Assembly (NCBI RefSeq): GCF_006717075.1
Contig: NZ_VFQC01000001.1
Span: 3,519,501-3,583,500, forward strand
Length of the DNA stretch: 64,000 nt
Reading direction: 5' to 3'
Source of the DNA: Haloactinospora alba
GTDB taxonomy: Bacteria > Actinomycetota > Actinomycetes > Streptosporangiales > Streptosporangiaceae
In this document: one piece after another, positions 8,617 to 39,004 of the stretch
How positions within the stretch are numbered: position 1 is the first letter of the stretch
Layout: each line of letters begins with the position of its first letter
The notes under the pieces: generated by a model
What the model was told of the DNA's origin: nothing
Databases searched by the model: none
The model's input: the letters and a program-made list of their open reading frames with translations, nothing else
Position numbers and translations under genes: made by a program

Positions 8617-9864
8617 TCATCCCCCTCGGCCATGCCGACGCGGCACCGGCCGCACCGCCCGCGAGGGGCCGCGTCCGTCACACAGGCCCTGGGCGCCACC
8701 GCACGACGGCAGCAGCGCCACCACCCGGAACCCGCCCGCGGGCCGCGGCGCCGCGGAAAAGCTGCCGCCGAGGGCGGTGACACGCTCGCGCATCCCCCGT
8801 ATCCCCGCGCCCTCCACGGCGCCGGGTTCGGGACCGCAGCCGTCGTCGTCGACACTGACCCGCAGCCGGGCGGGGCCGTAACGCACCGACACGCGCACCG
8901 ACCGGGCCCGCGCGTGCCGCAGCGCGTTGGTCAGCGCCTCCTGGACCACGCGGTAGGCGACGAGTCCCACGGAGGCGGGAAGCTCCACCTCCCGCCCCGC
9001 GGTTTCCACCGCCACCGGAAGCCCCTCAGCGGTGAACCGGTCCGCGAGGTCGGTGAGCTGGTCCAGGGACGGTGCCGCGGTACGGGGCATGGTCTCCTCA
9101 CCCGCCCGGTTCAGCACGCCCATCGTGCGGCGCACCTCCCGCAGGGTCTCCGTGCTGGCCGTGCGGATGGTCTCCAGCGCGGCCCGGGTCCGTTGCGGGT
9201 CGCACTGGTGCGTGGCCGCGTTGGCCTGCACGTTCACCAGCGAGATGTTGTGCGCGACGACGTCGTGCAGCTCCCGCGCCACCCGCATCCGCTCCTCGGT
9301 GGCGCGCCTGCGCACCTCCTCGTCCCGGCCGCGTTCGGCCTCGGCCGCACGGTGCTGCGCCTCGCGCAGGTAGTCACGCCGGCCGAGGACGATCTCGCAG
9401 GCGGCGACGACCGCGAGCACCCACCCGAGCACGGCCAGCGACCTGCCCAACTCGGCGTCGACGAGTTCCGCCGACGCGAACGCGCCCAGGGCGAGGCCCA
9501 CACCGGTGTAGGCCCACCGCCGGTGGCCGTCGGCGGCCAGCCGCAGGCTTCCGGCGACGAACGCCAGCCAGGCCGTCCCGTTGTCGACCGGGCCCAGCAC
9601 GTAGTACAGCGGTGTCGCCGCGCCCACGGTGAGGGCGGTCACCGCGGGGAAGCGGCCCGCCGCCGCGAGGGAGGCGGCGGCGCACAGCAGCGCGGCGAAG
9701 CCCGCCAGACGCGGCTGGACACCGGAGCTCTCCGCGACGAGGAGTTCCGTTCCGGTGGTGACGGCACCCACCGCCACCGCCAGCATCCCGTCAACAGCCG
9801 CGGCCGGCAGGCGGGAGAGCGGGTTTCCCGCCGGCGTTCCTTCCGAGGGTGTCCTGTCCGGCAC
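8617..9864 (-). CDS. Sensor histidine kinase (HisKA_3 type)
   Basis: A 415-residue kinase. The N-terminal half has several membrane helices (about residues 22-160). The HisKA_3 dimerisation helix follows, with phospho-histidine H200 in RVARELHDVVAHNISLV, then an HATPase domain with N-box VVQEALTNALRHA and G-box GAGIRGMRERV. It lacks an extracellular sensor loop of any size, so it is an intramembrane-sensing type. GTG at 9864 is chosen because AGGGAA precedes it and it starts 2 bp after the stop of the small membrane protein. That linkage suggests the small protein helps the kinase sense or fold. Its partner is the NarL-type regulator at 7718-8398. Confidence 0.9.
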   Translation of the reverse strand: MPDRTPSEGTPAGNPLSRLPAAAVDGMLAVAVGAVTTGTELLVAESSGVQPRLAGFAALLCAAASLAAAGRFPAVTALTVGAATPLYYVLGPVDNGTAWLAFVAGSLRLAADGHRRWAYTGVGLALGAFASAELVDAELGRSLAVLGWVLAVVAACEIVLGRRDYLREAQHRAAEAERGRDEEVRRRATEERMRVARELHDVVAHNISLVNVQANAATHQCDPQRTRAALETIRTASTETLREVRRTMGVLNRAGEETMPRTAAPSLDQLTDLADRFTAEGLPVAVETAGREVELPASVGLVAYRVVQEALTNALRHARARSVRVSVRYGPARLRVSVDDDGCGPEPGAVEGAGIRGMRERVTALGGSFSAAPRPAGGFRVVALLPSCGGAQGLCDGRGPSRAVRPVPRRHGRGG

Positions 9865-17364: not shown

Positions 17365-18525
17365 ATGACCGAGCTGTACACCACCACGGAGGAGCACGAG
17401 GAGCTGCGCTCCGCCGTACGCGCCGTCGCCGACGACAAGATCGAACCGAACGCCGCCGCCGTGGACGCCGCGAGCGCGTTCCCGCAACAGGCCTACGACG
17501 CCCTGCGCGCCACCGACTTCCACGCCGCCCACATCCCCGAGGAGTACGGCGGGGTCGGCGCCGACGCCCTGGCCACCTGCATCATCATCGAGGAGGTGGC
17601 CCGCGCCTGCGCCTCCTCCTCCCTGATCCCGGCCGTCAACAAGCTCGGAACCATGCCGCTCCTCCTGGGAGCCTCCGAGGACGTGAAGCAGCGCTACCTG
17701 CCCCAGACGACGCGCGGCGAGACGATGTTCTCCTACGGCCTCTCCGAGCGGGAGGCCGGCTCGGACACCGCCAACATGCGCACCCGCGCCGACGCCGACG
17801 GCGACGACTGGGTCCTCAACGGGCAGAAGTCCTGGATCACCAACGCCGGCGTCAGCGACTACTACACCGTCATGGCCGTCACCGACCCGGAGGGCAAACG
17901 CGGCGGCAACATCAGCGCCTTCGTGGTGCACGCCGACGACCCCGGTTTCACCCTGGGTGAGCCGGAGAAGAAGCTCGGCATCAAGGGTTCGCCCACGCGG
18001 GAGCTGTTCTTCGACGACGTCCGCATCCCCGGTGACCGCCTGGTGGGCTCGGTCGGCGAGGGACTGAAGATCGCGCTGCGCACCCTGGACCACACCCGGA
18101 TCACCATCGGCGCCCAGGCGATCGGCATCGCCCAGGGGGCCCTGGACCACGCCCTGGCATACACCAAGGAGCGCCAGCAGTTCGGCACCGCCATCTCCGA
18201 GTTCCAGGGGGTGCAGTTCATGCTCGCCGACATGGGGATGAAGCTGGAGACCGCCCGCCAGATGGTGTACGCCGCCGCGGCCAAGTCCGAGCGGGAGGAC
18301 TCCGACCTGTCCTTCTTCGGCGCCGCCGCCAAGTGCTACGCCTCCGACGCCGCGATGGAGATCACCACCGACGCCGTCCAGCTGCTGGGCGGCTCCGGCT
18401 ACGTCTCCGACTTCCCGGTGGAGCGCATGATGCGCGACGCCAAGATCACCCAGATCTACGAGGGCACCAACCAGATCCAGCGCCTGGTGATGGCCCGCCA
18501 GATGCTGAAGGGCGGCACCCGCTAG
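17365..18525 (+). CDS. Acyl-CoA dehydrogenase
   Basis: A 386-residue flavoenzyme of the standard length for the ACAD family. It carries the FAD-binding signatures SEREAGSDTANMRT and WITNAGVSDYY and the middle-domain motif GIKGSPTRELFFDDVRIP. The C-terminal helix has the catalytic-base glutamate in QIYEGTNQIQRLVMAR. It oxidises acyl-CoA to the enoyl-CoA and passes electrons to ETF. GGAAGGGG precedes the ATG. The gene is monocistronic; its TAG stop codon is the first three bases of a MITE-like element inserted between stop and terminator. Chain-length preference cannot be told. Confidence 0.94.
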   Translation: MTELYTTTEEHEELRSAVRAVADDKIEPNAAAVDAASAFPQQAYDALRATDFHAAHIPEEYGGVGADALATCIIIEEVARACASSSLIPAVNKLGTMPLLLGASEDVKQRYLPQTTRGETMFSYGLSEREAGSDTANMRTRADADGDDWVLNGQKSWITNAGVSDYYTVMAVTDPEGKRGGNISAFVVHADDPGFTLGEPEKKLGIKGSPTRELFFDDVRIPGDRLVGSVGEGLKIALRTLDHTRITIGAQAIGIAQGALDHALAYTKERQQFGTAISEFQGVQFMLADMGMKLETARQMVYAAAAKSEREDSDLSFFGAAAKCYASDAAMEITTDAVQLLGGSGYVSDFPVERMMRDAKITQIYEGTNQIQRLVMARQMLKGGTR

Positions 18526-20473: not shown

Positions 20474-20515
20474 TTGACACTGGACAGATCCAGGTATTTA
20501 ATGAAAGTAATCATT
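20474..20515 (+). promoter_or_regulatory. Near-consensus promoter and palindrome for the NRPS operon
   Basis: TTGACA (20474-20479) and TTTAAT (20497-20502) with a 17 bp spacer form a housekeeping-sigma promoter about 85 bp upstream of the aminotransferase. Overlapping the -10 is AATGA-N6-TCATT (20500-20515), a palindrome suited to a repressor. The AT-rich sequence loosely recalls metal-responsive operators such as Zur, but it is 3 bp shorter than the usual 15 bp core. Confidence 0.62.
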
Positions 20516-20587
20516 GGTCACGGAGTGACAGACGTGTCCCACCTGCGAAGACGCCCCACGGGGTGATCGACGGCCGAGGTGATACAT

Positions 20588-21898
20588 GTGCGTCCTGCTT
20601 CCCAGCCCGACTTGGCCACCCGGCACAGGGACGTGATGCCACCCTGGTCACCGCTTTACCACAGGGACGACCCCCTGGAGATCGCTTCCGGGCAGGGGTG
20701 CTGGGTGCGTGACGGTCACGACCGTAGCTACCTCGATTTCTACTCGGGGATAGCCGCCAACATCCTCGGTTACGACGTTCCCGAGGTACGCGCGGCGGTG
20801 GAGCGTCAGCTGCGTACCGGAATCGTCCATACGTCAACGTTCTATCTCATCCGGTCCCAGGTGGAATTGGCCGAACGCGTTGCGAGGGTATCCGGGATCG
20901 CGGACCCCGTGGTGTTCTTCACCTGTTCCGGAACCGAAGCGGTGGAGACGGCTCTGCTACTCGCCACGGAATACCGACGCAGCCACCAGGTCGTCGCGCT
21001 GCGGCACGGTTACCATGGCCGCTCGTTCGGGGCTCTCGCGGTAACGGGCGACAACCGTTGGAAGGGCATGGGACTCTCCCCCGTGAACGTCGCTCACATC
21101 CCCGCCGGCCGGCCTGAAGGCAGTACGTCCGCGGACCTGGACGGGCCGGCGTACGTGCGACTGTGCGCGGAGGAACTGGAGCACCTGGTCGACACGGAAC
21201 TTCCGCAGCCGGTGGCGGCCCTGCTTGCGGAACCGGTGCAGGGGGTGGCCGGTGCGGTGCCGTTGGAGTCGGGCCAGTTGGCAGCGTACGCCGAGATACT
21301 CAGAGAGCGGGGCATCCTCCTCATCGTCGATGAGGTGCAGACCGGGTGGGGGCGCACCGGCCGCTACTGGGGATATCAGTGGGAGAACGTGCGACCCGAT
21401 CTCCTGGTGTTCGCCAAGGGGGTCGGCAACGGACTCGCTCTGGGCGGGGTGGTCGGACGGCGCGAGGTCATGTCCTGTCTGACGATGCCCTCTATATCGA
21501 CGTTCGGTGGCAACCCACTGGCCACCACCGCGGCGGTGGCGACCCTCGACGCGATCGAGGACCGCGACCTGCCCGCCCACGCGCACCGGGTCGGCGACCT
21601 GTTGCGGGAACGGTTGGACCGACAGCTGTGCGACCTGTCCTCCGTACTTCGGGTGCAGGGCCAGGGTCTGCTCCTGGGGCTCGCGTTCGTACGTCCGGGA
21701 ACGCACGCGCCCAGCCCGGAACGGGCAGTGGCCGTCCAGGAGGAGTGCCGCTCGAACGGCCTGCTGGTCGGGACCGGGGGTAGGGCGGGAAACCGTCTAC
21801 GCATCATGCCGCCCCTGACCGTAACGGCCGAGGAAGCGCTACACGGCGCGGATGTCATCGCCGCTGCCGCCCGCAGGACGGACACCCATTGGAGGTGA
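20588..21898 (+). CDS. Class III PLP aminotransferase of the NRPS operon
   Basis: A 436-residue fold-type I aminotransferase. GSGTE-like loop CSGTEAVETAL binds phosphate, D248 in VDEVQTGWGRTG contacts the PLP nitrogen, and K277 (VFAKGVGNGLALGG) is the Schiff-base lysine. The class covers ornithine, diaminobutyrate and beta-alanine aminotransferases; the exact substrate is not evident. GTG at 20588 is chosen because GAGGTGAT precedes it at proper spacing. Its TGA lies 8 bp before the NRPS ATG and overlaps the NRPS ribosome site, so the genes are co-translated. A role in supplying an amino donor or unusual amino acid to the NRPS product is inferred. Confidence 0.9.
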   Translation: MRPASQPDLATRHRDVMPPWSPLYHRDDPLEIASGQGCWVRDGHDRSYLDFYSGIAANILGYDVPEVRAAVERQLRTGIVHTSTFYLIRSQVELAERVARVSGIADPVVFFTCSGTEAVETALLLATEYRRSHQVVALRHGYHGRSFGALAVTGDNRWKGMGLSPVNVAHIPAGRPEGSTSADLDGPAYVRLCAEELEHLVDTELPQPVAALLAEPVQGVAGAVPLESGQLAAYAEILRERGILLIVDEVQTGWGRTGRYWGYQWENVRPDLLVFAKGVGNGLALGGVVGRREVMSCLTMPSISTFGGNPLATTAAVATLDAIEDRDLPAHAHRVGDLLRERLDRQLCDLSSVLRVQGQGLLLGLAFVRPGTHAPSPERAVAVQEECRSNGLLVGTGGRAGNRLRIMPPLTVTAEEALHGADVIAAAARRTDTHWR

Positions 21899-21906
21899 AG
21901 GTTGGT

Positions 21907-24900
21907 ATGCGTATCGAAGGCGACAAGACCACAGCACCGCGGCGCTTCCCCCTGACATCCGTTCAGCGCGCGTACAGGCTGGGGAGGGAGGATGAACAGC
22001 CGCTCGGTGGTGTGGCCTGTCACATGTACTTCGAGTTCGACGCCGCCACGGCACCGGATCCGAAGCGGCTGGAGACCGCGTACCAACGGTTGCAGGACCG
22101 GCACCCCATGCTGCGCGCTGTGTTTCCCACCGAGGAGGACGGGGTCCTCCACCCCCAGCCCGTGGACGAGGTGACGGTCCACGACCTCTCCGGATCGCAG
22201 CAGGACAGTACGGGAACTCTGACACGGCTGCGGGAGGACCTCTCACGCCGCAGGTCCGACGCGGCGCGTGGGCCGATGATGGACCTCCACCTCTCCCTGC
22301 TGCCCGGAGGCGGGTCCCGGCTCCACGTCGACGTCGACCTGATGGCCGCGGACCCGCCCAGCATCAGAACCGCCCTGAACGACCTTGCTGAGTTTTACGG
22401 ACACGGCGATCTGCCGCCGCTGGACTACGACTTCCCCCAACACCAACGGCAGTACGGTCGGCAGGAGGCCGAGCGGCGGGAGCACCACGCCGCGAGCGCG
22501 GACCAGGCGATGAACGGCACCGACCTGACACCCCCGCGGCTTCCCATGGCACAGGCTCCGAACACCACGTCCGGGGCCCGGTTCCAGCGGCGAACGCTCC
22601 CGGTGCTCCCGGACGAGTGGCATCGGATCCGCGAGAGGGCGTCGCGGGCAGGCGTTCGACCGGAGACCGTCCTGTACGCCACCTACGCCCACACCTTGGA
22701 GCGTTGGGACGAAGGGCGCCAGTTCCTGCTCAACGTTCCCGTATTCGACAGGCCGCGGCTGCACTCCGGAATCGACCGGATCGTCGGCGACTTCACCCGC
22801 CTCCTGGTATCCCCGGTCACCACGTCCGACGCCGACAGTCTCCAGGAGTTGGTAAACGCCGCACAAGCCACCGACAACACCCTGCGCCGGGAACACGACG
22901 CCCCCACGGTGCAGGCCGTCGTCGAGGCGGCACACCGCCGCGGGGAGGCAGCTCCCGAGCTTGGCGCCGTCTACACCGAACTGACGCGGCCCTGGACCTC
23001 GGAACTGTTCACCCAGTGCTTCGGCGCGCTGTCCTGGATGGTGACGCAGACCCCGCAGGTATGGCTGGATTGCCTCACCTACCCCCAGGACGAGGGCGTG
23101 TGCATGGCCTGGGACACCGTGGACGAGCTCTTCCTTCCCGGCGTTCTCGACGGTATGGCCGAGTACTGCTCCACCATGCTCACCGCGTTCGCCGACCGGG
23201 ATTGGCGCAATCCACCCCCCAACGGACTGCCCAAGGCCCAGCGCGCCACCCGCGACCGGGTCAACAACACGCGCGCTCCGCAGAGCTCGCTGCTGCTGCA
23301 CGAACGGTTCTTCGCCCAAGCCGCCGTGGAACCCGAGCCCGCCGCCCTGCTACACGACGGGCACGCCCTGAGCCGGGGCGAGCTCGCTGAGCGCGCACTG
23401 CGACTGGCCGCGTTCCTAGGCGAGCGGGGTGTGGACAAGGGCGAGCCGGTCGGTATCTGCCTGGAACCGGGACCGGAGCAGGTTACCGCCGTACTGGGCG
23501 TGTTGGCGGCCGGCGGCTGCTACGTACCCGTCGGGCCGGAACAACCCGTCCTGCGTCGAAACCACATCCTGGACACGGCGGGAGCGAGGTTCGTCATCGC
23601 CGAGCGGCCGACGGACACGGGTGAGCCGGAAGGCGATGGCGGTTCGCCTGACATCACCCGCGTCTCCCCCACAGAGGCGAACAACCACAGGCCCCTGGAC
23701 CGACCCGTCGGGGTGGAGCCACGGTCCCTCGCGTACATCATCTTCACCTCCGGGTCGACAGGCAGCCCGAAGGGTGTGGAGATCGAGCACCGGTCGGCAG
23801 CCAACACGCTCGAGGACCTCAACGAGCGCTGGGGAGTCGGGACGGAGGACCGCTGCCTGACCGTATCGGCACTCGACTTCGACCTGTCCGTGTACGAGAT
23901 CTTCGGGCCTCTCATGGCAGGAGGGTCCGTGGTCGTACCGACGGTTGACGAGCAGCGCGACCCCGACGCCTGGCTGCGGCTGATCCACGGGCACCGTGTC
24001 ACGATGTGGGACTCGGTGCCCGCGCTGCTCGACATGCTTGTGTCAGCGGCAGAGACACCGGATACGGGGAACGCGGCGAATCCCGGGACGTCCGGGGAGA
24101 AAGGAGTGGACCTGCTGCGCAGCCTGCGGCTCGTACTCACCGGTGGCGACTGGATCGCCCTCGACCTACCCGACCGCCTCCGACGCCTGGCACCGTCCTG
24201 CCGCTTCGTCGCCTGCGGGGGTGCCACCGAAGGAGCGGTCTACTCCAACTACTTCGAGGTGGACAGCATCGGGGCTGAGTGGACTTCCATACCCTATGGG
24301 GTCCCTCTACGGAACCAGCACTATCGCGTTGTGGATCCGCAGGAGCGGGACTGTCCGGACTGGGTTCCCGGAGAGCTGTGGATCGGCGGTGCCGGGGTCG
24401 CCCGTGGCTACCGCAACGACCCCGACCGCACAGCCGAGCGCTTCCGCGAGTCCGACAGCGTGCGCTGGTACCGCACGGGTGACATGGGCCGCTACCGCCA
24501 CGACGGCGTCCTGGAGTTCCTGGGACGCATGGACCACCAGATCCAACTGCACGGCTACCGCATCGAGCTCGGCGAGATAGAAGCCGCCTTGAGCTCCCAC
24601 CCGGATGTGTCCCGGGCGGTCGCCGTCGTCTCCGGGGAGGGGCCACAGCGCCGCATCGTGGCTTTCCTACAGCCCGCCGGGAAAACCGCGAACCTGGACA
24701 CCGTACGACAGCTCGCTCGACGCTGGCTCCCCGACTACGCCTGGCCCTCCGACTATTTCGTGCTTTCCGAACTGCCGCTGAACGACAACGGCAAGGTGGA
24801 CCGGAAGACACTTACCGCATGGGCGCTACCGGAACGTGAGCCGGCACCCCACGAGCCGCCCCACACCGGCACGGAGGAGGCCCTGGCCCAGGAGTGGACC

Positions 24901-25137
24901 GCGGTGCTGGGCGACGTCGTCTCCTCCCGCCACCAGAACTTCTTCGATCTGGGAGGGAACAGTTTCCACGCGATGCGGCTGGCCTCCGCGATCACCCGGC
25001 GCTTCGGCCTGAGGGTGCCGCTGCGGCAGCTCCAGTCCGCAGCCACACTGGCCGGGATGGCCCAAGCGGTCGACGAGGCGGCGAGGGACGCTCACGCCCC
25101 CGAGGCGACTCGATCCGCATCCCAGGCGGCAACATGA
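21907..25137 (+). CDS. Single-module NRPS: heterocyclization-adenylation-carrier (Cy-A-PCP)
   Basis: A 1076-residue synthetase. Residues 14-440 form a cyclization-type condensation domain: the Cy opening FPLTSVQRAYRLGR...PLGGVACH, and DLMAADPPS (D144-x4-D149-x2-S152) instead of HHxxxDG, then IVGDFTRLL. The A domain (about 465-985) has TSGSTGSPKG at 614-623 and an aspartate anchor in DFDLSVYEIFG; the first binding-pocket residues D-L-Y match cysteine-type codes but later ones differ. The PCP near the C-terminus has LGGNS with phosphopantetheine Ser1019. Cy domains condense and cyclise Cys/Ser/Thr to thiazoline or oxazoline rings. No loading module, oxidase or C-terminal TE is in the gene. The thioesterase gene overlaps its end by 4 bp. 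Confidence 0.93.
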   Translation: MRIEGDKTTAPRRFPLTSVQRAYRLGREDEQPLGGVACHMYFEFDAATAPDPKRLETAYQRLQDRHPMLRAVFPTEEDGVLHPQPVDEVTVHDLSGSQQDSTGTLTRLREDLSRRRSDAARGPMMDLHLSLLPGGGSRLHVDVDLMAADPPSIRTALNDLAEFYGHGDLPPLDYDFPQHQRQYGRQEAERREHHAASADQAMNGTDLTPPRLPMAQAPNTTSGARFQRRTLPVLPDEWHRIRERASRAGVRPETVLYATYAHTLERWDEGRQFLLNVPVFDRPRLHSGIDRIVGDFTRLLVSPVTTSDADSLQELVNAAQATDNTLRREHDAPTVQAVVEAAHRRGEAAPELGAVYTELTRPWTSELFTQCFGALSWMVTQTPQVWLDCLTYPQDEGVCMAWDTVDELFLPGVLDGMAEYCSTMLTAFADRDWRNPPPNGLPKAQRATRDRVNNTRAPQSSLLLHERFFAQAAVEPEPAALLHDGHALSRGELAERALRLAAFLGERGVDKGEPVGICLEPGPEQVTAVLGVLAAGGCYVPVGPEQPVLRRNHILDTAGARFVIAERPTDTGEPEGDGGSPDITRVSPTEANNHRPLDRPVGVEPRSLAYIIFTSGSTGSPKGVEIEHRSAANTLEDLNERWGVGTEDRCLTVSALDFDLSVYEIFGPLMAGGSVVVPTVDEQRDPDAWLRLIHGHRVTMWDSVPALLDMLVSAAETPDTGNAANPGTSGEKGVDLLRSLRLVLTGGDWIALDLPDRLRRLAPSCRFVACGGATEGAVYSNYFEVDSIGAEWTSIPYGVPLRNQHYRVVDPQERDCPDWVPGELWIGGAGVARGYRNDPDRTAERFRESDSVRWYRTGDMGRYRHDGVLEFLGRMDHQIQLHGYRIELGEIEAALSSHPDVSRAVAVVSGEGPQRRIVAFLQPAGKTANLDTVRQLARRWLPDYAWPSDYFVLSELPLNDNGKVDRKTLTAWALPEREPAPHEPPHTGTEEALAQEWTAVLGDVVSSRHQNFFDLGGNSFHAMRLASAITRRFGLRVPLRQLQSAATLAGMAQAVDEAARDAHAPEATRSASQAAT

Positions 25138-25898
25138 CCGCCCCCCAAGCCTCCGACCCCTTGAGCCGATGGATCAAGAAGCTTCACGCCCCGCCGGGCG
25201 CCACCACCCGGCTGGTCTGCTTCCCCTACGCGGGAGGCGGAGCCAGCGTCTACCGCCGCTGGATTCCCTACCTGCCCGACACCTACGAGTTGTGGTCAGT
25301 CCAATACCCGGGCCGCGAGGACCGCTCCGGCGAAGAACTCCCGCGCGCCATGCAGGAACTGGCCCGCTCGGTCGCCTTCGCTCTCCAGTGGTTGAAGGGC
25401 AAGCCCTACACTCTGTTCGGCCACAGCATGGGGGCCATCGTCTCCTACGAGACCTGCCGCGAGATCGACAAACTCGGCATCACCGCCCCCGAGTACCTCG
25501 TCGTTTCCGGAAGTCCACCCCCGGACCAGGCAGCGGCATCCTGCCGCGCCGGGGCCGACCAGCACAGCCCGCCCCGGATCGCGAAGGGCGACGCCACAGA
25601 GATCGAGACGGAGGCGAACTCCCTCATCACCGCGACCCTTGAGGGGGACATCGAACTGCTCGCCGACCACACGCTCGAACCCGGCACTCGGACGGTCCCG
25701 ATACCCGTGACGGTGCTCCACAACGACGCCGACCCAGGGGCCGACGCGAAGACGGTGCACGGTTGGCACTCCTTCACCGACCGCCGGTGCCGCTTCACCA
25801 CACTGCCCGGCGATCACTTCGCCTGCTTCACCCACCCCGAGAGAACCGTACGAGAGGTCACTTCGGACCTGGCCCCACTCCGCCAGCCGGAATTCTGA
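25134..25898 (+). CDS. Type II thioesterase (alpha/beta hydrolase)
   Basis: A 254-residue thioesterase. It has the RLVCFPYAGGGASVYRRW entry of type II NRPS thioesterases, catalytic serine in GHSMG, the aspartate region TVLHNDADPGADAKTV and catalytic histidine in PGDHF. Type II enzymes clear misprimed acyl groups from carrier proteins; here it might also release the product because the NRPS has no TE domain. The lid region between GSPPP and the aspartate strand looks shorter than usual. ATG overlaps the NRPS stop (ATGA). Its stop is 26 bp before the SnoaL-like gene. Confidence 0.9.
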   Translation: MTAPQASDPLSRWIKKLHAPPGATTRLVCFPYAGGGASVYRRWIPYLPDTYELWSVQYPGREDRSGEELPRAMQELARSVAFALQWLKGKPYTLFGHSMGAIVSYETCREIDKLGITAPEYLVVSGSPPPDQAAASCRAGADQHSPPRIAKGDATEIETEANSLITATLEGDIELLADHTLEPGTRTVPIPVTVLHNDADPGADAKTVHGWHSFTDRRCRFTTLPGDHFACFTHPERTVREVTSDLAPLRQPEF

Positions 25899-25924
25899 GC
25901 AGCACAGGGAAGGAACAAAGGATC

Positions 25925-26359
25925 ATGGACGTGACACCCAGCCTCAGCAACACCACCGAGGAGCTCATCGGTAAACGCCAAGCGCTGTTCGCCAACCTGG
26001 AAACCCCGGAGACGATCCCCCGGTTTTTCGAGGGGGTCGCCGACAACGTGAGCTGGACCCTGCACGGCAATCATTCCCTCGCCGGGGAATACACATCCAA
26101 GCAATCTTTCATCAACCAGGTCATAAACCGCCTCGGCCCTATGATGCGCAACGGTCTGCGCTTCCAGATCAACCGCCTGCACGTCGGAAGCCCTGTGACC
26201 GTAGCCGAGATGGAAAGCACCTCCGTCGGAATGGACGGCGCTCCCTACGATCAGATCTACGCCTGGATCTGCACCTTTGAGAACGGCACCATCGTGAACG
26301 TGCACGCCTATGTCGACTCGGTCGCCGTTATCGACTTCCTTCGCCGTAACGAAGGGTGA
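25925..26359 (+). CDS. SnoaL-like (NTF2 superfamily) protein of the NRPS operon
   Basis: A 144-residue single-domain protein with the NTF2/SnoaL pattern: an N-terminal helix (ELIGKRQALFANLE), then PRFFEGVADNVSWTLHG, and a late strand pair YAWICTFENGTIVNVHAYVDS. Superfamily members are polyketide cyclases, ketosteroid isomerases or binding proteins. GGAAGGA precedes the ATG at 14 bp and AAAGGA at 5 bp. It closes the operon behind the thioesterase, so it probably acts on the NRPS intermediate, as a cyclase, dehydratase or carrier. No catalytic residues can be assigned with confidence. Confidence 0.82.
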   Translation: MDVTPSLSNTTEELIGKRQALFANLETPETIPRFFEGVADNVSWTLHGNHSLAGEYTSKQSFINQVINRLGPMMRNGLRFQINRLHVGSPVTVAEMESTSVGMDGAPYDQIYAWICTFENGTIVNVHAYVDSVAVIDFLRRNEG

Positions 26360-27543: not shown

Positions 27544-28757
27544 ATGCCCCTCGCCGTGTTCGCTCTGATGATCGCCAGCTTCGGCATCGGAACGACCGAG
27601 TTCGTCATCATGGGCCTGTTACCTGAGGTGGCCGACGACATGTCCGTCAGCCTCACCACGGCCGGCCTGCTCATCTCCGGTTACGCCATGGGCGTCGTCC
27701 TCGGCGGCCCGCTCTTCACCGCCGCGGCCACCCGCATGCCCCGCAAGAGCATGCTGCTGGTCCTCATGGTGCTGTTCATCATCGGCAACGCGCTCGCCGC
27801 GCTCGCGCCGTCCTACTGGGTCCTCATGGCCGGCCGGATCTTCGCCGCCGTCTGCCACGGCGCGTTCCTCGGCATCGCCTCCGTGGTCGCCGCGGACATG
27901 GTCGACCAGAGCAAGCGCTCCCGCGCCATCTCGCTGGTCTTCACCGGCCTCACGTCGCCAACGTCTTCGGCGCCCCCATGGGCACCTGGATCGGCCAGTA
28001 CGCCGACTGGCGCGCCACCTTCTGGATGATCACCGCGATCGGCGTGGTCAGCCTGGTCGGCCTCGTCGCCCTCGTCCCCCACCAGCGGAACGCGGCTCCC
28101 GCACGGCTGCGGAGCGAGCTCGCGGTGTTCACCCGCGGCCAGGTCTGGCTGGCCCTGGCCACCGCCGGCCTGAGCATCGGGTCGCTCTTCGCGGCGTTCA
28201 GCTACGTCTCCCCGCTGATGACCGACGTCGCCGGGTTCGCCCCCGGGATGATCACCCCGCTGCTGATGCTCTTCGGAGTCGGCCTGGTCGTCGGCAACCT
28301 GCTGGGAGGCCGCTACGCCGACCGCGCCCAGGTCGCCACGCTCCTCACCGCCCAAGCTGTCCTGGCCGTGGTGCTGGTCGCCTTCACCCTGACCGTCCAC
28401 GTCCAGCTGGCCGCCGCGGCCACGCTGGCGCTGCTCGGTGGCGCCGGCTTCGCCACCGTCCCCGGCTTCATGACCCGCGTCATCGACAAGGCCGAGGGAG
28501 CCCCCACCTTGGCCTCGGCGGTCGCCTCCTCAGCCGCCAACGCCGGGATCGCCGTCGGTTCCTACCTCGCCGGCGCCACCATCGACGCCGGGCTCGGCCT
28601 CACCGCCCCGCTCTGGGTGGGGGCGGCCATGGCCGTCGCCGCGCTCCTCGTCACCCTCGCCTCCGGCGCGCTCGACCGCTCCCGCCACCGCACGCGCGGC
28701 GCGGACGCAACGCTGGCGGGAGCACCCGACGAACCGGTCCGGGAGACGGCCACCTGA
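27544..28757 (+). pseudogene. Frameshifted MFS drug-efflux-type transporter (DHA1/AraJ-like)
   Basis: The start MPLAVFALMIASFGIGTTEF and motif SGYAMGVVLGGPLF are those of DHA1 efflux proteins of the Cmx/AraJ group. Frame 1 runs to about residue 137 (FTGLT). The homologous sequence then resumes in another frame at NVFGAPMGTWIGQYADWRAT and continues to the C-terminus. One G seems to be missing near 27955, where ACGTCGCC stands for ACGGTCGCC (T-V-A). Restoring it gives a normal ~404-residue 12-helix protein. GGAGGAGG precedes the ATG. Either a true loss-of-function or a sequencing error; the rest of the gene is intact, so the change is recent or artefactual. Confidence 0.85.
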
Positions 28758-33585: not shown

Positions 33586-34541
33586 CTCCCGCCCTCCTGC
33601 CCGCTCGCCTGTCCGCTCGGCGCGGGAGGGGACGCGGTGTGTTCGGTGACCGACTCGGTCAGTTCCATGTAGGCCTGTTCCAACGACGCTTCCTCGCCGT
33701 AGAGGGCGTGTATCCGCGCTCCCGCGGCATGGGCGATGTCGCCGACCGTCTCCGGGGCGGCACCCGAGACACGCAGCTCACCAGCGTCGCCCCGGCCGAC
33801 AGAGACACCGTGCTCGGAGCCCGCCGCTTCCACGCGCCGCGCGAGCAGCTCGGTGTCGGGGCTGCGCACCACAACGACAGTGCCCGCAGCGCTTCCGACC
33901 ACCTCGGAGGTGGGAGCGTCGGCGATCAGGCGCCCCTGCCCGAGCAGCACGACCCGGTCCGCGACGAGTTGGACCTCGCTCATGAGATGGCTGGAGACGA
34001 ACACGGTCCGCCCCTCGTCGGCCAGCGACCGCACCAGGTCCCGCACCCACCGCACCCCGTCCGGGTCGAGGCCGTTCACCGGCTCGTCCAGCATGAGGGT
34101 TTCGGGCTCCCCCAACAACGCCCCGGCTATCCCCAGCCGCTGGCGCATACCGAGCGAGAACTCCCCCGCCCGTTTCGCCCCGACGTCGGCCAGCCCGACC
34201 CGGGCGAGCACGGCATCCACCCGGTGCTTGGCCACACCGCCGGCCCGCGCCATGGCGAGCAGGTGGTCGCGGGCCCGACGCCCCGGGTGCACGGCTCCCG
34301 CGTCCAGCAGGGCACCGATTTCCCGCACGGGGCAGTCCAGCTCCCGGCAGTCACGGCCGTTGACCCGCGCGGTTCCCGCCGTGGGATGGTCGAGACCGAG
34401 AACCATCCGCATCGTGCTCGACTTACCCGCCCCGTTCGGCCCGAGGAAACCGGTCACCTCACCGGGGCGCACGTCAAGGGTGAGCCGGTCGACGACGGTC
34501 CTGGCCCCGCGGCGTTTCGTCAGTCCTCGCAGTGAAAGCAC
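33582..34541 (-). CDS. ABC transporter ATP-binding protein (drug/lipid exporter type)
   Basis: A 319-residue ATPase. Walker A GPNGAGKS, signature EFSLGMRQRLG (replacing the usual LSGGQ), Walker B LMLDEPVNGLDPDG and the H-loop FVSSHLMSE. The ~90-residue C-terminal extension has the DrrA-like domain found in antibiotic exporters. GTG at 34541 is preceded by GGAGGAGAGGGG. The stop overlaps the permease start, so the two are translated together. It powers export through the ABC-2 permease. Confidence 0.9.
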   Translation of the reverse strand: MLSLRGLTKRRGARTVVDRLTLDVRPGEVTGFLGPNGAGKSSTMRMVLGLDHPTAGTARVNGRDCRELDCPVREIGALLDAGAVHPGRRARDHLLAMARAGGVAKHRVDAVLARVGLADVGAKRAGEFSLGMRQRLGIAGALLGEPETLMLDEPVNGLDPDGVRWVRDLVRSLADEGRTVFVSSHLMSEVQLVADRVVLLGQGRLIADAPTSEVVGSAAGTVVVVRSPDTELLARRVEAAGSEHGVSVGRGDAGELRVSGAAPETVGDIAHAAGARIHALYGEEASLEQAYMELTESVTEHTASPPAPSGQASGQEGGR

Positions 34542-34659
34542 CGGCTGTGCCCCTCTCCTCCGTGGAGTTCAGTTCCGCGAGGGAACGTACCGAGCGGAAA
34601 GGGCAGCGCACATCGGCTCTTCGTCAGCCGGCGGATACCCCGAAGGGCATAGTGTCCGC

Positions 34660-36327
34660 CTACCCCGCCGGTTCGAAGGACCTCGTGATGTCCTCCAGCA
34701 GCGCGCGGTTGCGGTCCCAGTCGCTCTCGGGGGACACCAGGAACAGGGCGTAGCCCTTGTCGTCGGTGTGGAACGCGCGGTTCACCGCGTGCATCCGCCC
34801 CTTGTCCCCCTCGAACGTGAACTCCCAGTCCGCGGCGCTCTCGTAACGCTGCAGGTAGGGCTTGTCCAGCGCGACGATGTCGGAACCCTGGTAGTCGTCG
34901 AACCCGCTGGAGATGGCGTCCTCCTGCTCCTCCCAGTCCTTCTTCGCGTTGCCGGCCGGGTTGTCGGTCTGGTCGATCTGCAGGTACCCGCCGCCGGGGA
35001 TGTCGAAGAACACGCTGCTGCCCACGCGGCGATCCTGCTCCCAGCCGGCCGGGACGTCGACGGCGAACCCGGTCTCGTCGCTGTGGCGCTCCATCTCGGG
35101 GCCGTCGTCCTCCGGCGGGGAGGACGACGAGGAGGAGGTGGACCCGTCGCCGTCGGTCGCGCCCGACGACTCCGCCGCCTCCGGTGCCGGGCCCTCCGCG
35201 CTGTTCGACCCCAACCACAGCCCGGTGAGGATCGACAGCACCAGCGCGAGCGCCCCGCCCACGAGCGGGAGCAGCACGCGCGGCCGCCGCACGGGGCGGC
35301 TCGCCCGCACCACCGAGGACCATCCGCTTCCCACCGCGCGGGCCACCACCGGTGCGGCGCGGGAGACAGCGCCCGCGCCCCGTGCCGCCGCCGCGCGCCC
35401 GGCCGAGGTCGCACCGGACACCGCCGGGGCGAGGTGGGAGGCGACCGCGGCACCCGCACCGGAAGGCGCGGCCGCGCGGGACGAGGCCGCGCCTTCCGGT
35501 GCCTCGGCCACGGCGGTGAGCAGCTGGTGTGCCTCCTGGGCGGAGGGGCGGCCCGCGGCGTCCTTGTTGAGGATCCGTTCCAGCACCGGCGCCAGCGGCC
35601 CGGCCCGCGACGGCGTCGGTACCTCCTCGGTGACGATCGCGGCGAGCGTCGCCATGGGAGTGGGCCGGTGGAACGGGGCGGCGCCCTCCACCACCTGGTA
35701 CAGCGTGATCCCGAGCGACCACATGTCGGTGGCTGTGCTGGCCTGGTTCCCGTGCGCCTGCTCCGGGGCGAGGTAACCGGGGGAACCGACGAGGAGTCCC
35801 GTGCTGGTGAGGTTGGTGGTGCCCTCCAACCGGGCGATACCGAAATCGGTGAGGACCGCCCGGTCCCCCTGCGCCAGCATGACGTTGCCGGGCTTGATGT
35901 CCCGGTGCACCACACCGCGGTCGTGCGCGAGGGCCAGGGCGGCGGCGAGCTGCGCCCCGATCCGGGCCACGCGCCGCGGCGGCAGCGGACCCTCCTCGTT
36001 CAGCACCCCGCTCAACGACGGCCCGCCCACCAGCTCCATCACGATCCAGGGGCGCCCGTCCACCTCGGCGACGTCGAACATCGTGATGATGGAGGGGTGG
36101 CTGAGCTGGGCCGCGCTGCGCGCCTCACGCAGCATGCGGGAACGCAGCACGTCCACCTCGTGCTGCGGCAGGTTCCCGGAGATGCTGAGTTCCTTGACGG
36201 CGACCGGCCGGTCCAGCAGCTCGTCGGTGCCCTGCCAGACGCGCCCCATGCCGCCCTCGCCGAGGAGTTCGTTCAGCCGGTAACGCCCGGCGAGCAGGTA
36301 TCCCGGCTCGGCTCTCTGGGTGCTCAT
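34660..36327 (-). CDS. Transmembrane serine/threonine protein kinase (PknB/Pkn2-like)
   Basis: A 555-residue kinase. The catalytic domain spans about 14-272: glycine loop GEGGMGRVW, ATP lysine K45, HRDIKPGN (D143), DFG at 161-163 and SPGYLAPEQ activation segment. An Ala/Pro linker leads to one transmembrane helix at 350-371. A ~175-residue outside domain follows, with an acidic Ser-rich stretch and a beta-rich module (GFAVDVPAGWEQDRRVGSSV) that resembles small surface or lipoprotein-like domains. It has no PASTA repeats. It probably phosphorylates cytoplasmic FHA-containing partners in response to an external cue. The ABC exporter follows on the same strand. Confidence 0.9.
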   Translation of the reverse strand: MSTQRAEPGYLLAGRYRLNELLGEGGMGRVWQGTDELLDRPVAVKELSISGNLPQHEVDVLRSRMLREARSAAQLSHPSIITMFDVAEVDGRPWIVMELVGGPSLSGVLNEEGPLPPRRVARIGAQLAAALALAHDRGVVHRDIKPGNVMLAQGDRAVLTDFGIARLEGTTNLTSTGLLVGSPGYLAPEQAHGNQASTATDMWSLGITLYQVVEGAAPFHRPTPMATLAAIVTEEVPTPSRAGPLAPVLERILNKDAAGRPSAQEAHQLLTAVAEAPEGAASSRAAAPSGAGAAVASHLAPAVSGATSAGRAAAARGAGAVSRAAPVVARAVGSGWSSVVRASRPVRRPRVLLPLVGGALALVLSILTGLWLGSNSAEGPAPEAAESSGATDGDGSTSSSSSSPPEDDGPEMERHSDETGFAVDVPAGWEQDRRVGSSVFFDIPGGGYLQIDQTDNPAGNAKKDWEEQEDAISSGFDDYQGSDIVALDKPYLQRYESAADWEFTFEGDKGRMHAVNRAFHTDDKGYALFLVSPESDWDRNRALLEDITRSFEPAG

Positions 36328-36593
36328 CGGTAGCGGAGTCCTCGGGTGGAAAGAGGGAAGGAACGGTTGTCGCGGCGTCGGACCCGGCCGCCCCCTTGGG
36401 GACGGCGCCGCGGGACGGGCGGTGCCGCGCCGCGCGCGTCCCGCGGTCCAGCACGGTGGCGGCGGCACCTGCCGCGAGTTTAGGGCAACGGTGGTACCGC
36501 GCCGGCCGTGCCGGGCGCCCGCCGCCCGGGGCGGGAAGAGCCCGCACCGGGCGGTACGGCTGGTGCCGGGGCGTTCATCACCCCGGCGGGGGT

Positions 36594-37784
36594 TCACTGG
36601 TTCAGTAGCACCGGCAGCGCGGTGACACCGTTGGAGACGATGGAGGGAACGGGCTGCAGCTCCTCCTCGGCGAGCTCCATGCGGGGGAAACGCTCCCACA
36701 GTTTGGGCAGCGCGGTGGCGAGCTCCATCCGGGCCAGGTTCGCCCCGAGGCAGTAGTGCACGCCGTGGGAGAAGGCGACGTGCGACTTGTCCTGCCGGGT
36801 GATGTCGAACAGGTGGGCGGTCTCGCCGTGCCGGTCGGGGTCACGGCCCGCCGAGCCGTAGGACACCAGCACCGCCTCCCCCTCGCTGATGGGGGTGCCG
36901 GCGATCTCCACGTCCTCGGCGGTGTAGCGCAGCGGGACGTTCTGGATGGAGGTGTCCCACCGCAGCGTCTCCTCGATGACGTCGTTGAAGGTGTACTCCC
37001 CGCCGCGGACCAGTTCGAGCTGGTCCGGGTGGGTCAGCAGCGCCCGGACGGCGTTGGTGAGGAGGTTCATCGTGGTCTCGAACCCGGCCCCGATGATCAG
37101 GATCAGCGTCCACACCAGCTCGGACTCGCTGAGCCGGTCGTTCTCGTCGCGGGCGGCGATGAGGGCGCTGGTCATGTCGTCGCCCGGGTTCTCGCGTTTG
37201 GCGGCGACGAGGTTGGCGAGGTAGTTCTGCAGTCCCGCGTGGGTGGCCGCCGCCTGCTCGGGGGTGATGGTCTGGTCGAACAGGTTGTCGATGTAGCCGT
37301 GCAGCTCCACGCTCTCCTCGGGCCCCACCCCGAACAGGTCGCTGATGACGGTCATCGGCAGCGGCAGCGCGAGGTCGCTCTTCACATCGGCCCTGCCGCC
37401 GCCGGCGGCCATGTGGTCCAGCTGCCGGTCCACGATCTCCTCGACCCGGTCCCGCAGCCCCTCGACCCGGCGCGGGGTGAACGCTTTCGACACGAGCTTG
37501 CGCAGCCGGGTGTGGTCGTCGTCGTCGCGGGCGAGCATGTTCTCGTTGGCGACCCAGGAGATGAGCTGCCAGTCCGGCGGGATCTCCCCGTCCCGCCAGG
37601 CGCGCCAGTGCACCGGGTTCTTCTTGACCCGGGGGTCGGCGAGCACCTCCATGACGGCGGAGTGACGGGTCACCGCCCACGCATCAACTTCGCCAGGAAG
37701 CTGGACAGGGACGACCGGACCGAGTTCGCGGAGCTGCTCTGCTTGCTCGTGGAGGTCTCCGGTTGCGAGGGGGACTGCTCCCAT
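36594..37784 (-). CDS. Cytochrome P450 (CYP154-like), second gene of an overlapping pair
   Basis: A 396-residue soluble P450. The I-helix oxygen site is GAGFETTMN, ExxR is ETLR (E272, R275) and the heme-binding loop is AFSHGVHYCLGANLAR with Cys345. Together with the start MGAVPLATGDLHEQAE this matches the CYP154 group. These act on macrolides, flavonoids or steroids in other actinomycetes; the native substrate is unknown. ATG at 37784 has GAGGAAGGA upstream. The first 115 bp overlap the 3' end of the upstream P450 in another frame, so expression is coupled. Confidence 0.9.
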   Translation of the reverse strand: MGAVPLATGDLHEQAEQLRELGPVVPVQLPGEVDAWAVTRHSAVMEVLADPRVKKNPVHWRAWRDGEIPPDWQLISWVANENMLARDDDDHTRLRKLVSKAFTPRRVEGLRDRVEEIVDRQLDHMAAGGGRADVKSDLALPLPMTVISDLFGVGPEESVELHGYIDNLFDQTITPEQAAATHAGLQNYLANLVAAKRENPGDDMTSALIAARDENDRLSESELVWTLILIIGAGFETTMNLLTNAVRALLTHPDQLELVRGGEYTFNDVIEETLRWDTSIQNVPLRYTAEDVEIAGTPISEGEAVLVSYGSAGRDPDRHGETAHLFDITRQDKSHVAFSHGVHYCLGANLARMELATALPKLWERFPRMELAEEELQPVPSIVSNGVTALPVLLNQ

Positions 37785-39004
37785 TGTTTTCCTTCCTCAG
37801 TGGGGGGTTGTGCCGTGAACGTGACAGGAAGGCTGGTGAGCGAGCGGGAGAACGTGGAGACGCGCCACTGCAGCTCCTGGGGATCGACCGCGAGGCGCAG
37901 TCCCGGAAGCCGGCGGATGAGGGTCTGGATGCCGGTGGTGGCGATGATGGTGCCCAGGTCCTGGGCGGGACAGCGGTGCGGCCCCACGCCCCAGGCCAGG
38001 TGCGCGCGGTTGGCGCTCTCCCCCATCTGCTGTGCGTTCTCCTCCGCGACGAACCGGTTCGCGGCAGCGTAGCCCAGCAGGACCGGACTGCCCTCCGGAA
38101 CGGTCTGGTTCCCCACCGACACGTCGGTGGTGGGGTACATCACCGGGTAGTTGGTGACGGGTGGCGCCGTCCACAGGACGTGTTCGATGGCGTCCTGGAC
38201 GCTGACCCGCGACCCGGCGACGTCCTCCCCCAGAGCGGGGTCGGTCAGCAGGACCCGCATGCTGTTGGCGATCAGGTTGGCGCTGGGCTCGGTGCCCGCG
38301 CCGACGATCATCACGAGCTGCTGGATCACCTCCTCGTCGGTGAGGCCGGCGCGGTGCTCCATCAACCAGCTCGTGACGTCGGGGCCCGGGTTCCTGCGCT
38401 TGTCGGTGATGACCTCCGACAGCACGCGTTCTATCTCGGCGTTGGCGCGCTCGGCCTCGACGCCGTCCCACATCTCCCGCAGGGCCGTGAAGAAGCGGCG
38501 GCCGCTCTCCTCGTCGAACCCGAACATCTGGTTGACCACCAGCAGCGGGAGAAGCCGGGCGTACTCGCCCAGCAGCTCGGCCTCGCCGCGCTCGCAGAAC
38601 GCGTCGATGAGCTGGTCGGAGGCGGTGCGCGCGTGGTTCGCGATCCGGGCGGAGTCCAGCTTGCCGAGGCTGTCCGTGACGGCCCGGCGCAGCCGCCGGT
38701 GTTCCTCCCCGTCGGTGAACAGCACGTTGGGGCGGGGCATCATCATGCCGACCAGTGAGGACTCGTCGGAGATCCGGCCCTCGCGCCAGTCCCGCCAGCG
38801 GTGGGAGTCGCGGCTGAACGTCCGGGTGTCCCGGCACCAGGAGATGATGGTGGCGTAGTCGATCACCACCCACCCGTGTACACCCGGTTCCAGTTCGGCC
38901 GGTACGACGGGGCCGTACCTCTCCCGCAGCCGCTCGAACACGGCGTGCTGGTCCACGTGGAAATCGGGATCGTACAGGGCGGCGTAGGGGCATTCGTCAG
39001 TCAC
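37670..39004 (-). CDS. Cytochrome P450 lacking the ExxR motif (CYP157-like)
   Basis: A 444-residue P450 with three unusual core motifs. The K-helix site reads EHVLW (274-278), so the ExxR arginine is replaced. The I helix has GAGTEPSAN, and the heme loop is AWGVGPHRCPAQDLG with Cys345 but proline where the G after C-x is expected. Loss of ExxR with a leucine-tryptophan is the hallmark of the CYP157 family, which pairs with CYP154 in Streptomyces, usually beside conservons. The last ~40 residues are a Ser/Thr/Gln-rich tail that overlaps the next P450. GTG at 39004 is preceded by GAGGA. A redox function may be lost or altered. Confidence 0.87.
   Translation of the reverse strand: MTDECPYAALYDPDFHVDQHAVFERLRERYGPVVPAELEPGVHGWVVIDYATIISWCRDTRTFSRDSHRWRDWREGRISDESSLVGMMMPRPNVLFTDGEEHRRLRRAVTDSLGKLDSARIANHARTASDQLIDAFCERGEAELLGEYARLLPLLVVNQMFGFDEESGRRFFTALREMWDGVEAERANAEIERVLSEVITDKRRNPGPDVTSWLMEHRAGLTDEEVIQQLVMIVGAGTEPSANLIANSMRVLLTDPALGEDVAGSRVSVQDAIEHVLWTAPPVTNYPVMYPTTDVSVGNQTVPEGSPVLLGYAAANRFVAEENAQQMGESANRAHLAWGVGPHRCPAQDLGTIIATTGIQTLIRRLPGLRLAVDPQELQWRVSTFSRSLTSLPVTFTAQPPTEEGKQWEQSPSQPETSTSKQSSSANSVRSSLSSFLAKLMRGR

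Follow-up and report, generated by a model that had tools for sequence, protein, structure and literature searches.

How can a nonribosomal peptide synthetase (NRPS) that consists of one heterocyclization (Cy), one adenylation (A) and one peptidyl carrier (PCP) domain yield a product when no loading module precedes it, and which building block might it activate? The question is raised by a small operon in a stretch of 64,000 nucleotides from Haloactinospora alba (contig NZ_VFQC01000001.1, positions 3,519,501 to 3,583,500; this whole stretch is referred to here as the window), whose 4.94-Mb host genome is the sole representative of its genus among the genomes searched. On the plus strand, over positions 20579-26359, the operon encodes in order a class III aminotransferase, a Cy-A-PCP NRPS, a type II thioesterase and a protein of the NTF2/SnoaL fold. 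We conclude that it represents a conserved, rare and apparently uncharacterised small pathway with a defined gene set that is carried by several actinobacteria, and that its A domain, judging from the residues of its pocket, probably does not activate cysteine; the favoured candidates are the cationic amino acids 2,3-diaminopropionate and 2,4-diaminobutyrate.

An earlier interpretation made from the letters of the window alone (the sequence-only reading) had named these four genes, and all of them were recovered by Pfam and fold matching. The features are listed below, with NRPS residues numbered from the TTG at 21889.

20474..20515, plus strand: promoter-like site TTGACA-N17-TTTAAT with an AATGA-N6-TCATT palindrome overlapping the -10 element; read from the sequence, not in the relatives
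20579..21898, plus strand: class III pyridoxal phosphate aminotransferase with Val replacing the gatekeeper Glu; nearest relatives include beta-amino-acid (pyrimidine-catabolism type) aminotransferases (Pfam Aminotran_3, tree)
21889..25137, plus strand: lone-module NRPS, Cy-A-PCP, likely starting at the ATG at 21907 behind GGAGG (Pfam)
21946..23208, plus strand: Cy domain with DxxxxD, a Thr363/Asp394 dyad, Glu364 after the Thr and Leu396 replacing the helper Gln (alignment)
23308..24816, plus strand: A domain, code DLYDLGCVYK, with Asp708 (the equivalent of position 278) at 24010-24012 (alignment)
24880..25071, plus strand: PCP domain with LGGNSF and Ser1025 (Pfam)
25134..25898, plus strand: type II thioesterase with GHSMG (Pfam Thioesterase)
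25925..26359, plus strand: SnoaL-like protein of predicted NTF2/ketosteroid-isomerase (KSI) fold, adjoining the NRPS in three of four loci (model and fold match)

The NRPS is matched by the Pfam models Condensation, AMP-binding, AMP-binding_C and PP-binding, and Cy, A and PCP domains each occur once in the whole window (E 0.001). Translational linkage, which had been proposed for all four genes, holds for the first three, with 8 nt between the aminotransferase and the ATG of the NRPS and an ATGA overlap between the NRPS and the thioesterase; the SnoaL-like gene follows after 26 nt and is thus co-directional, not translationally coupled.

The same synthetase occurs in three other named genomes. 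A scan of 84,980 species' genomes with the core of the A domain (residues 655-815), based on exact peptide patterns, matched 81 stretches, three of which were confirmed: Streptomyces iconiensis (L047), Streptomyces sp. NBC_01016 (L048) and Nocardia tenerifensis (L049). S. iconiensis has all four genes in the same order, with identities of 76% for the aminotransferase, 63% for the NRPS, 53% for the thioesterase and 77% for the SnoaL-like protein. The corresponding values for the first three proteins are 66%, 56% and 50% in NBC_01016, where there is no SnoaL-like match at the locus, and in N. tenerifensis an NRPS in two frames (57% and 43% identical) is accompanied by a SnoaL-like protein (36%) and then by an APH-family gene. 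The frame change in the latter NRPS lies between its Cy and A parts (L049, about 9535-9635) and reflects decay or a draft-assembly error. The three 20-kb loci likewise have a single Cy, a single A and a single PCP domain apiece (E 0.001); since the lone-module layout recurs in this way, in four of four stretches, we rejected the idea of a truncated cluster, and the supposition of a small uncharacterised pathway that lacks a loading module gains from the comparison. Nine open reading frames (ORFs) flanking the operon were tested against the three loci and, if weak TetR and MFS matches in N. tenerifensis are set aside, none matched, so that the shared unit is the four genes themselves.

The synthetase is also rare. 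At E 1e-238, the window's genome was the only match among 394 genomes of its class (itself included) and S. iconiensis the only match among 295 genomes of its genus (itself included), an estimate that is approximate because two candidates were scored per genome and the genome-contig scan used exact peptide patterns. Matches in a plasmid collection (2581 records) all fall below 60% identity, the highest among 60 matches listed being 42.2%. Homologues of the SnoaL-like protein were found in two of 199 other genomes of the taxonomic family, with no NRPS match around them within stretches of 19.5 kb and 5.6 kb. Functional kinship with the lone Cy-A modules of about 1130-1220 amino acids from the same taxonomic family was considered and rejected, as their codes, where determined, are DLFNLGLIHK or of a Cys type, and the stretches that carry such modules have no aminotransferase match (E 1e-8) except the window's own. 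We take the DLFNLGLIHK modules to make siderophores. No description of the operon was found among the papers listed by our searches of the open-licence PubMed Central literature.

The substrate prediction draws on the ten-letter specificity code, which was obtained by alignment to what we take to be the code positions of GrsA. The window's code is DLYDLGCVYK and those of its three relatives are DLYDLGCVYK, DLYDFGCVYK and DLYDIGCIYK, i.e. DLYD(L/F/I)GC(V/I)YK in all four members. In a tree of 57 A domains, from which (as in the Cy comparison below) sequences that were interrupted by in-frame stops or aligned over a short length were excluded, the four form one clade with support of 100/100. This clade falls within a larger group of 38 Cy-linked rows, itself supported at 100/100, and is weakly (86/70) nearest to Cys-type rows. 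Asp278 is present in all four family rows and in none of the 53 others (Asn in 42, Gln in six, five other residues once each), about 10 of which are not Cy-linked Cys/Ser/Thr types. The sequence-only reading had taken the opening letters D-L-Y for a cysteine code and had guessed at a thiazoline product; this part of it is not supported, since the fit ends with those three letters. They also begin DLYNLGLIHK, presumably a Ser/Thr-type code, and Asp278, Gly301, Cys322 and Tyr331, which are fixed in all four members, replace the Asn, Ser, Leu and Trp of the Cys code DLYNLSLIWK. The window's Val330 does fall within the published Cys range. According to a published survey, Asn278 marks the main cluster of Cys-activating domains, whereas Asp278 together with Gly301 is typical of most Arg-activating ones (PMC12283262). 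Because the family shares the latter pair, a cationic side chain is the most economical guess, and diaminopropionate or diaminobutyrate would be favoured by side-chain sizes that can cyclise to five- or six-membered rings.

A second set of substitutions surrounds the active site of the Cy domain. To our knowledge, the residue that Cy domains cyclise is Cys, Ser, Thr or an alpha-methyl form of one of these. A multiple alignment shows that DxxxxD and the Thr/Asp catalytic dyad are kept in all four members. The residue after the dyad Thr is Glu or Asp in each of them and acidic in none of 41 comparators (Ser in 36), and the helper Gln, which lies two positions beyond the dyad Asp and is present in 37 of the 41, is Leu or Val in all four. 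All 41 comparators were counted, among them two that lack Cy-type motifs, another three that lack the Thr, and ten DLFNLGLIHK modules that are close relatives of one another. Taken with Asp278 in the A pocket, the acidic residue after the Cy Thr means that both substrate-handling sites of one protein have gained an acid together. The altered surroundings suggest either an active site rebuilt for another nucleophile or a cyclisation that has been weakened or lost. Mutation of the dyad or of the Gln severely affects cyclodehydration, but BmdB-Cy2 naturally lacks the helper Gln (PMC9547227), and this residue is hence not strictly defining.

The aminotransferase (Pfam Aminotran_3, 1.5e-85) adds a further indication as to the building block. 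The operon aminotransferases group together with 100/100 support, and a wider clade of six, also at 100/100, adds three paralogues, one each from the genomes of the window, S. iconiensis and NBC_01016, which are 47-53% identical to the operon enzyme. Neighbourhoods were classified for two of the three paralogues (the third is L079): the one in NBC_01016 (L080) adjoins genes for PucR, a CN-hydrolase and dihydropyrimidinase, and the one in the window's genome (L074) lies near genes for methylmalonate-semialdehyde dehydrogenase, Lrp and a CN-hydrolase. Both point to beta-amino-acid transamination in pyrimidine breakdown, a catabolic setting that differs from the NRPS operon. All six clade members have Val or Ile at the position of the gatekeeper Glu of gamma-aminobutyrate- and ornithine-type enzymes. 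The pathway-linked homologues and the non-Glu gatekeeper place the operon enzyme, as a prediction, among the beta-amino-acid class III aminotransferases, and such an enzyme beside a cation-type A pocket would be compatible with diaminopropionate.

The thioesterase is a clear member of its family (Pfam Thioesterase, 1.5e-31). For the SnoaL-like protein there was no Pfam match at 0.001 and a weak SnoaL_2 match at E 0.1; the best of five AlphaFold models, made with three sequences as input, has a pLDDT of 84.9 (56.5 and 52.1 for the two worst) and a predicted NTF2/KSI fold, with 3grd as its best match in the PDB (E 3.3e-9). It had been claimed that the locus lacks a loading module, a ligase and an oxidase, and this is true of the operon, in which neither a decarboxylase nor a hydroxylase was found either; as regards the oxidase, the claim does not extend to the whole family, for a SagB-family dehydrogenase is encoded immediately upstream in NBC_01016 (TIGR03605, scoring 112 bits where the cut-off is 78). 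This enzyme matches CyaGox (1e-24) and, more weakly, BmdC, which oxidises a Cy-made thiazoline on its carrier (PMC8795117), and the resemblance argues that a ring is made. At the same junction (L048, 6740-6790) the GGAGG is not directly followed by a start codon (ATG, GTG or TTG) in frame with the aminotransferase, whose frame and the end of the SagB-type gene overlap.

From the gene set, the codes, the active-site changes, their conservation and the phylogeny we infer the substrate, the donor, the ring and every catalytic step of the following route, to which, as a whole, we give a probability of about 0.35. The A domain would descend from the Cys/Ser/Thr-type domains that accompany Cy domains and would have been retuned for a diamino acid through Asp278, Gly301, Cys322 and Tyr331. 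The aminotransferase might help to make or trim this building block, and the Cy domain would join the residue carried on the PCP either to an acyl group donated from elsewhere than the operon or to another molecule of the same amino acid. It may then close the side-chain amine onto the new amide to give a cyclic amidine (an imidazoline or a tetrahydropyrimidine), which the NTF2-fold protein, or the SagB-type dehydrogenase in NBC_01016, could tailor, while the type II thioesterase would release or proofread the chain. The more specific proposal, that a diamino-acid module closes a nitrogen ring by Cy cyclodehydration, with matching acidic substitutions in the A and Cy domains and SagB-type oxidation in one lineage, we regard as rather doubtful.

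Several observations weigh against this diamino-acid route. The window pairs Asp278 with Tyr239 and Tyr331, unlike Arg codes, which pair it with Glu239 and Thr or Asp331; diaminopropionate codes are said to resemble diaminobutyrate ones, and DLYDLGCVYK does not match DVWQMIGDDK, the code for beta-hydroxylated diaminobutyrate and the sole diaminobutyrate-type code compared (PMC12283262). Without the helper Gln, cyclodehydration could be weakened or lost, and no report of Cy-made amidines or imidazolines was found among papers listed by searches of the same literature. The two best PDB sequence matches of the aminotransferase are racemases, so that a racemase role is also compatible with its sequence, and the N. 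tenerifensis locus has neither an aminotransferase nor a thioesterase match, the best aminotransferase match anywhere in that genome being 39%. The SagB-type enzyme is present at just one of the four loci; weak relatives (30-33%) lie elsewhere in the genomes of S. iconiensis and N. tenerifensis, and the SagB-type query found no match in the window's genome at E 0.001, reaching none of its three nitroreductase-family matches. As for a donor supplied in trans, short ORFs with carrier domains exist elsewhere in the window's genome, none of which could be tied to the operon, and no donor was identified.

Known systems offer a different way to dispense with a donor. That a Cy domain needs one upstream, as had been assumed, has a published exception in the Cy-A-T dithiolopyrrolone synthetases, which couple two cysteines of their own (PMC3826145, PMC10134970). 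These synthetases (HlmE, DtpB, HolA) resemble the operon in that their Cy-A-PCP module stands alone, has no loading module before it and is accompanied by a type II thioesterase, and the operon may share this logic. Our control was one cluster (L100) on a 180-kb linear plasmid of Streptomyces finlayi, whose record does not state the product and whose genes for a globin, a flavoprotein, a GMC oxidoreductase, a thioesterase and an acyl-CoA dehydrogenase resemble the published holomycin-type set; its thioesterase and NRPS are 26% and 36% identical to those of the window. As measured against this single control sequence, the operon NRPS was rejected as a dithiolopyrrolone synthetase. The code in S. 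finlayi is DLYNLSLIWK; the reloading Cys, conserved about 15 residues after A2 in dithiolopyrrolone synthetases (PMC10134970), is present there (RCSVR) and replaced by Ala-Gly or Ser-Gly in the four family members; and the Cy dyad, Thr/Asp in the family, is Ser/Glu in this one sequence. The usual partners (acyl-CoA dehydrogenase, GMC-type oxidoreductase, PPC-decarboxylase) do not accompany the family: of seven S. finlayi partner genes, S. iconiensis and NBC_01016 have a match to the thioesterase alone and N. tenerifensis has no match at all, and an acyl-CoA dehydrogenase match (32%) occurs in the window alone, outside the operon at 17392-18504. That the module couples its amino acid to a second molecule of the same kind in the dithiolopyrrolone manner, with no outside donor, is therefore decidedly unlikely, despite the common layout.

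The comparison also bears on the somewhat improbable alternative that the Cy domain no longer closes a ring and serves for condensation only, so that an unusual amino acid ends up in a small amide or dipeptide. The Cy domain of dithiolopyrrolone synthetases is a precedent for one that leaves no azoline in the product, and the family has Leu or Val in place of the very Gln whose mutation harms cyclodehydration (PMC9547227); however, the family keeps DxxxxD and the Thr/Asp dyad that S. finlayi has exchanged, and one relative has a SagB-type dehydrogenase. Activation of cysteine, with a thiazoline formed by the Cy domain, would agree with the weak attraction of the A clade to Cys-type rows and with the best PDB sequence match of the NRPS, PchE (dihydroaeruginoic acid synthetase; 648 bits along Cy-A), but is unlikely given the four fixed pocket residues that depart from the Cys code. 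PchE itself has a Cys-type pocket with Asn278, and it has a loading part and a role in siderophore synthesis. Its runner-up in the PDB, 6lta, which we take to be FmoA3, is likewise a Cy-A-PCP protein and differs by Asn at 278 and, presumably, in its partner genes. Least likely among the alternatives is an oxazoline made from some different non-proteinogenic residue, such as a beta-hydroxylated or an N-modified amino acid: Gly301 is common to the DLFNLGLIHK-like codes, which we take to be Ser/Thr types, but in these position 331 is His and position 278 is Asn or, in a few cases, Gln or Ser, and the operon has no hydroxylase. The bacillamide system BmdB/BmdC shares with the family a Cy-A-PCP module, a Cy domain (BmdB-Cy2) without the helper Gln and, with the NBC_01016 relative, a SagB/nitroreductase-type enzyme; it differs in its own loading module, its Cys-derived thiazoline and a decarboxylase.

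The consensus promoter that had been placed ahead of the operon is indeed there, as TTGACA (starting at 20474)-N17-TTTAAT, which agrees with the consensus at 11 of 12 positions; an automatic scan called no promoter at the operon because it demands an A at the second base of the -10 element. The AATGA-N6-TCATT palindrome is exact at 20500-20515, where 0.08 matches would be expected per 64 kb with one mismatch allowed. It is absent from 48 of 49 loci compared, all three relatives included, the sole carrier (L009) being the window's own stretch. The longer form TTTAATGA-N6-TCATTGG has 12 sites in the window's genome against 11 for a reversed control, and of the 12 only the operon's has fewer than three mismatches. 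A regulon under this palindrome was consequently rejected.

Other observations in the window concern the surroundings of the operon. Next to a divergent MarR gene, an MFS transporter (27544-28757) appears to be divided, through a frameshift or a sequencing error, between the ORFs 27544-28029 and 27978-28757, which overlap in different frames and match successive portions of MFS_1. Further along, an 865-amino-acid ORF (a putative gene, 33736-36333) has no Pfam match at 0.001, and a cytochrome P450 adjoins a 398-amino-acid ORF likewise without a match at that threshold (36594-38993), perhaps as a second small biosynthetic locus.

If the diamino-acid route is correct, the family would be a natural lineage in which the pocket that selects the substrate and the site that cyclises it have changed together, and would show how the chemistry of Cy domains is retargeted, in a system of three or four genes that is small enough to be rebuilt in vitro. 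Even if no amidine ring is made, these actinobacteria carry a conserved and apparently uncharacterised pathway for which the predicted substrate can be tested directly.

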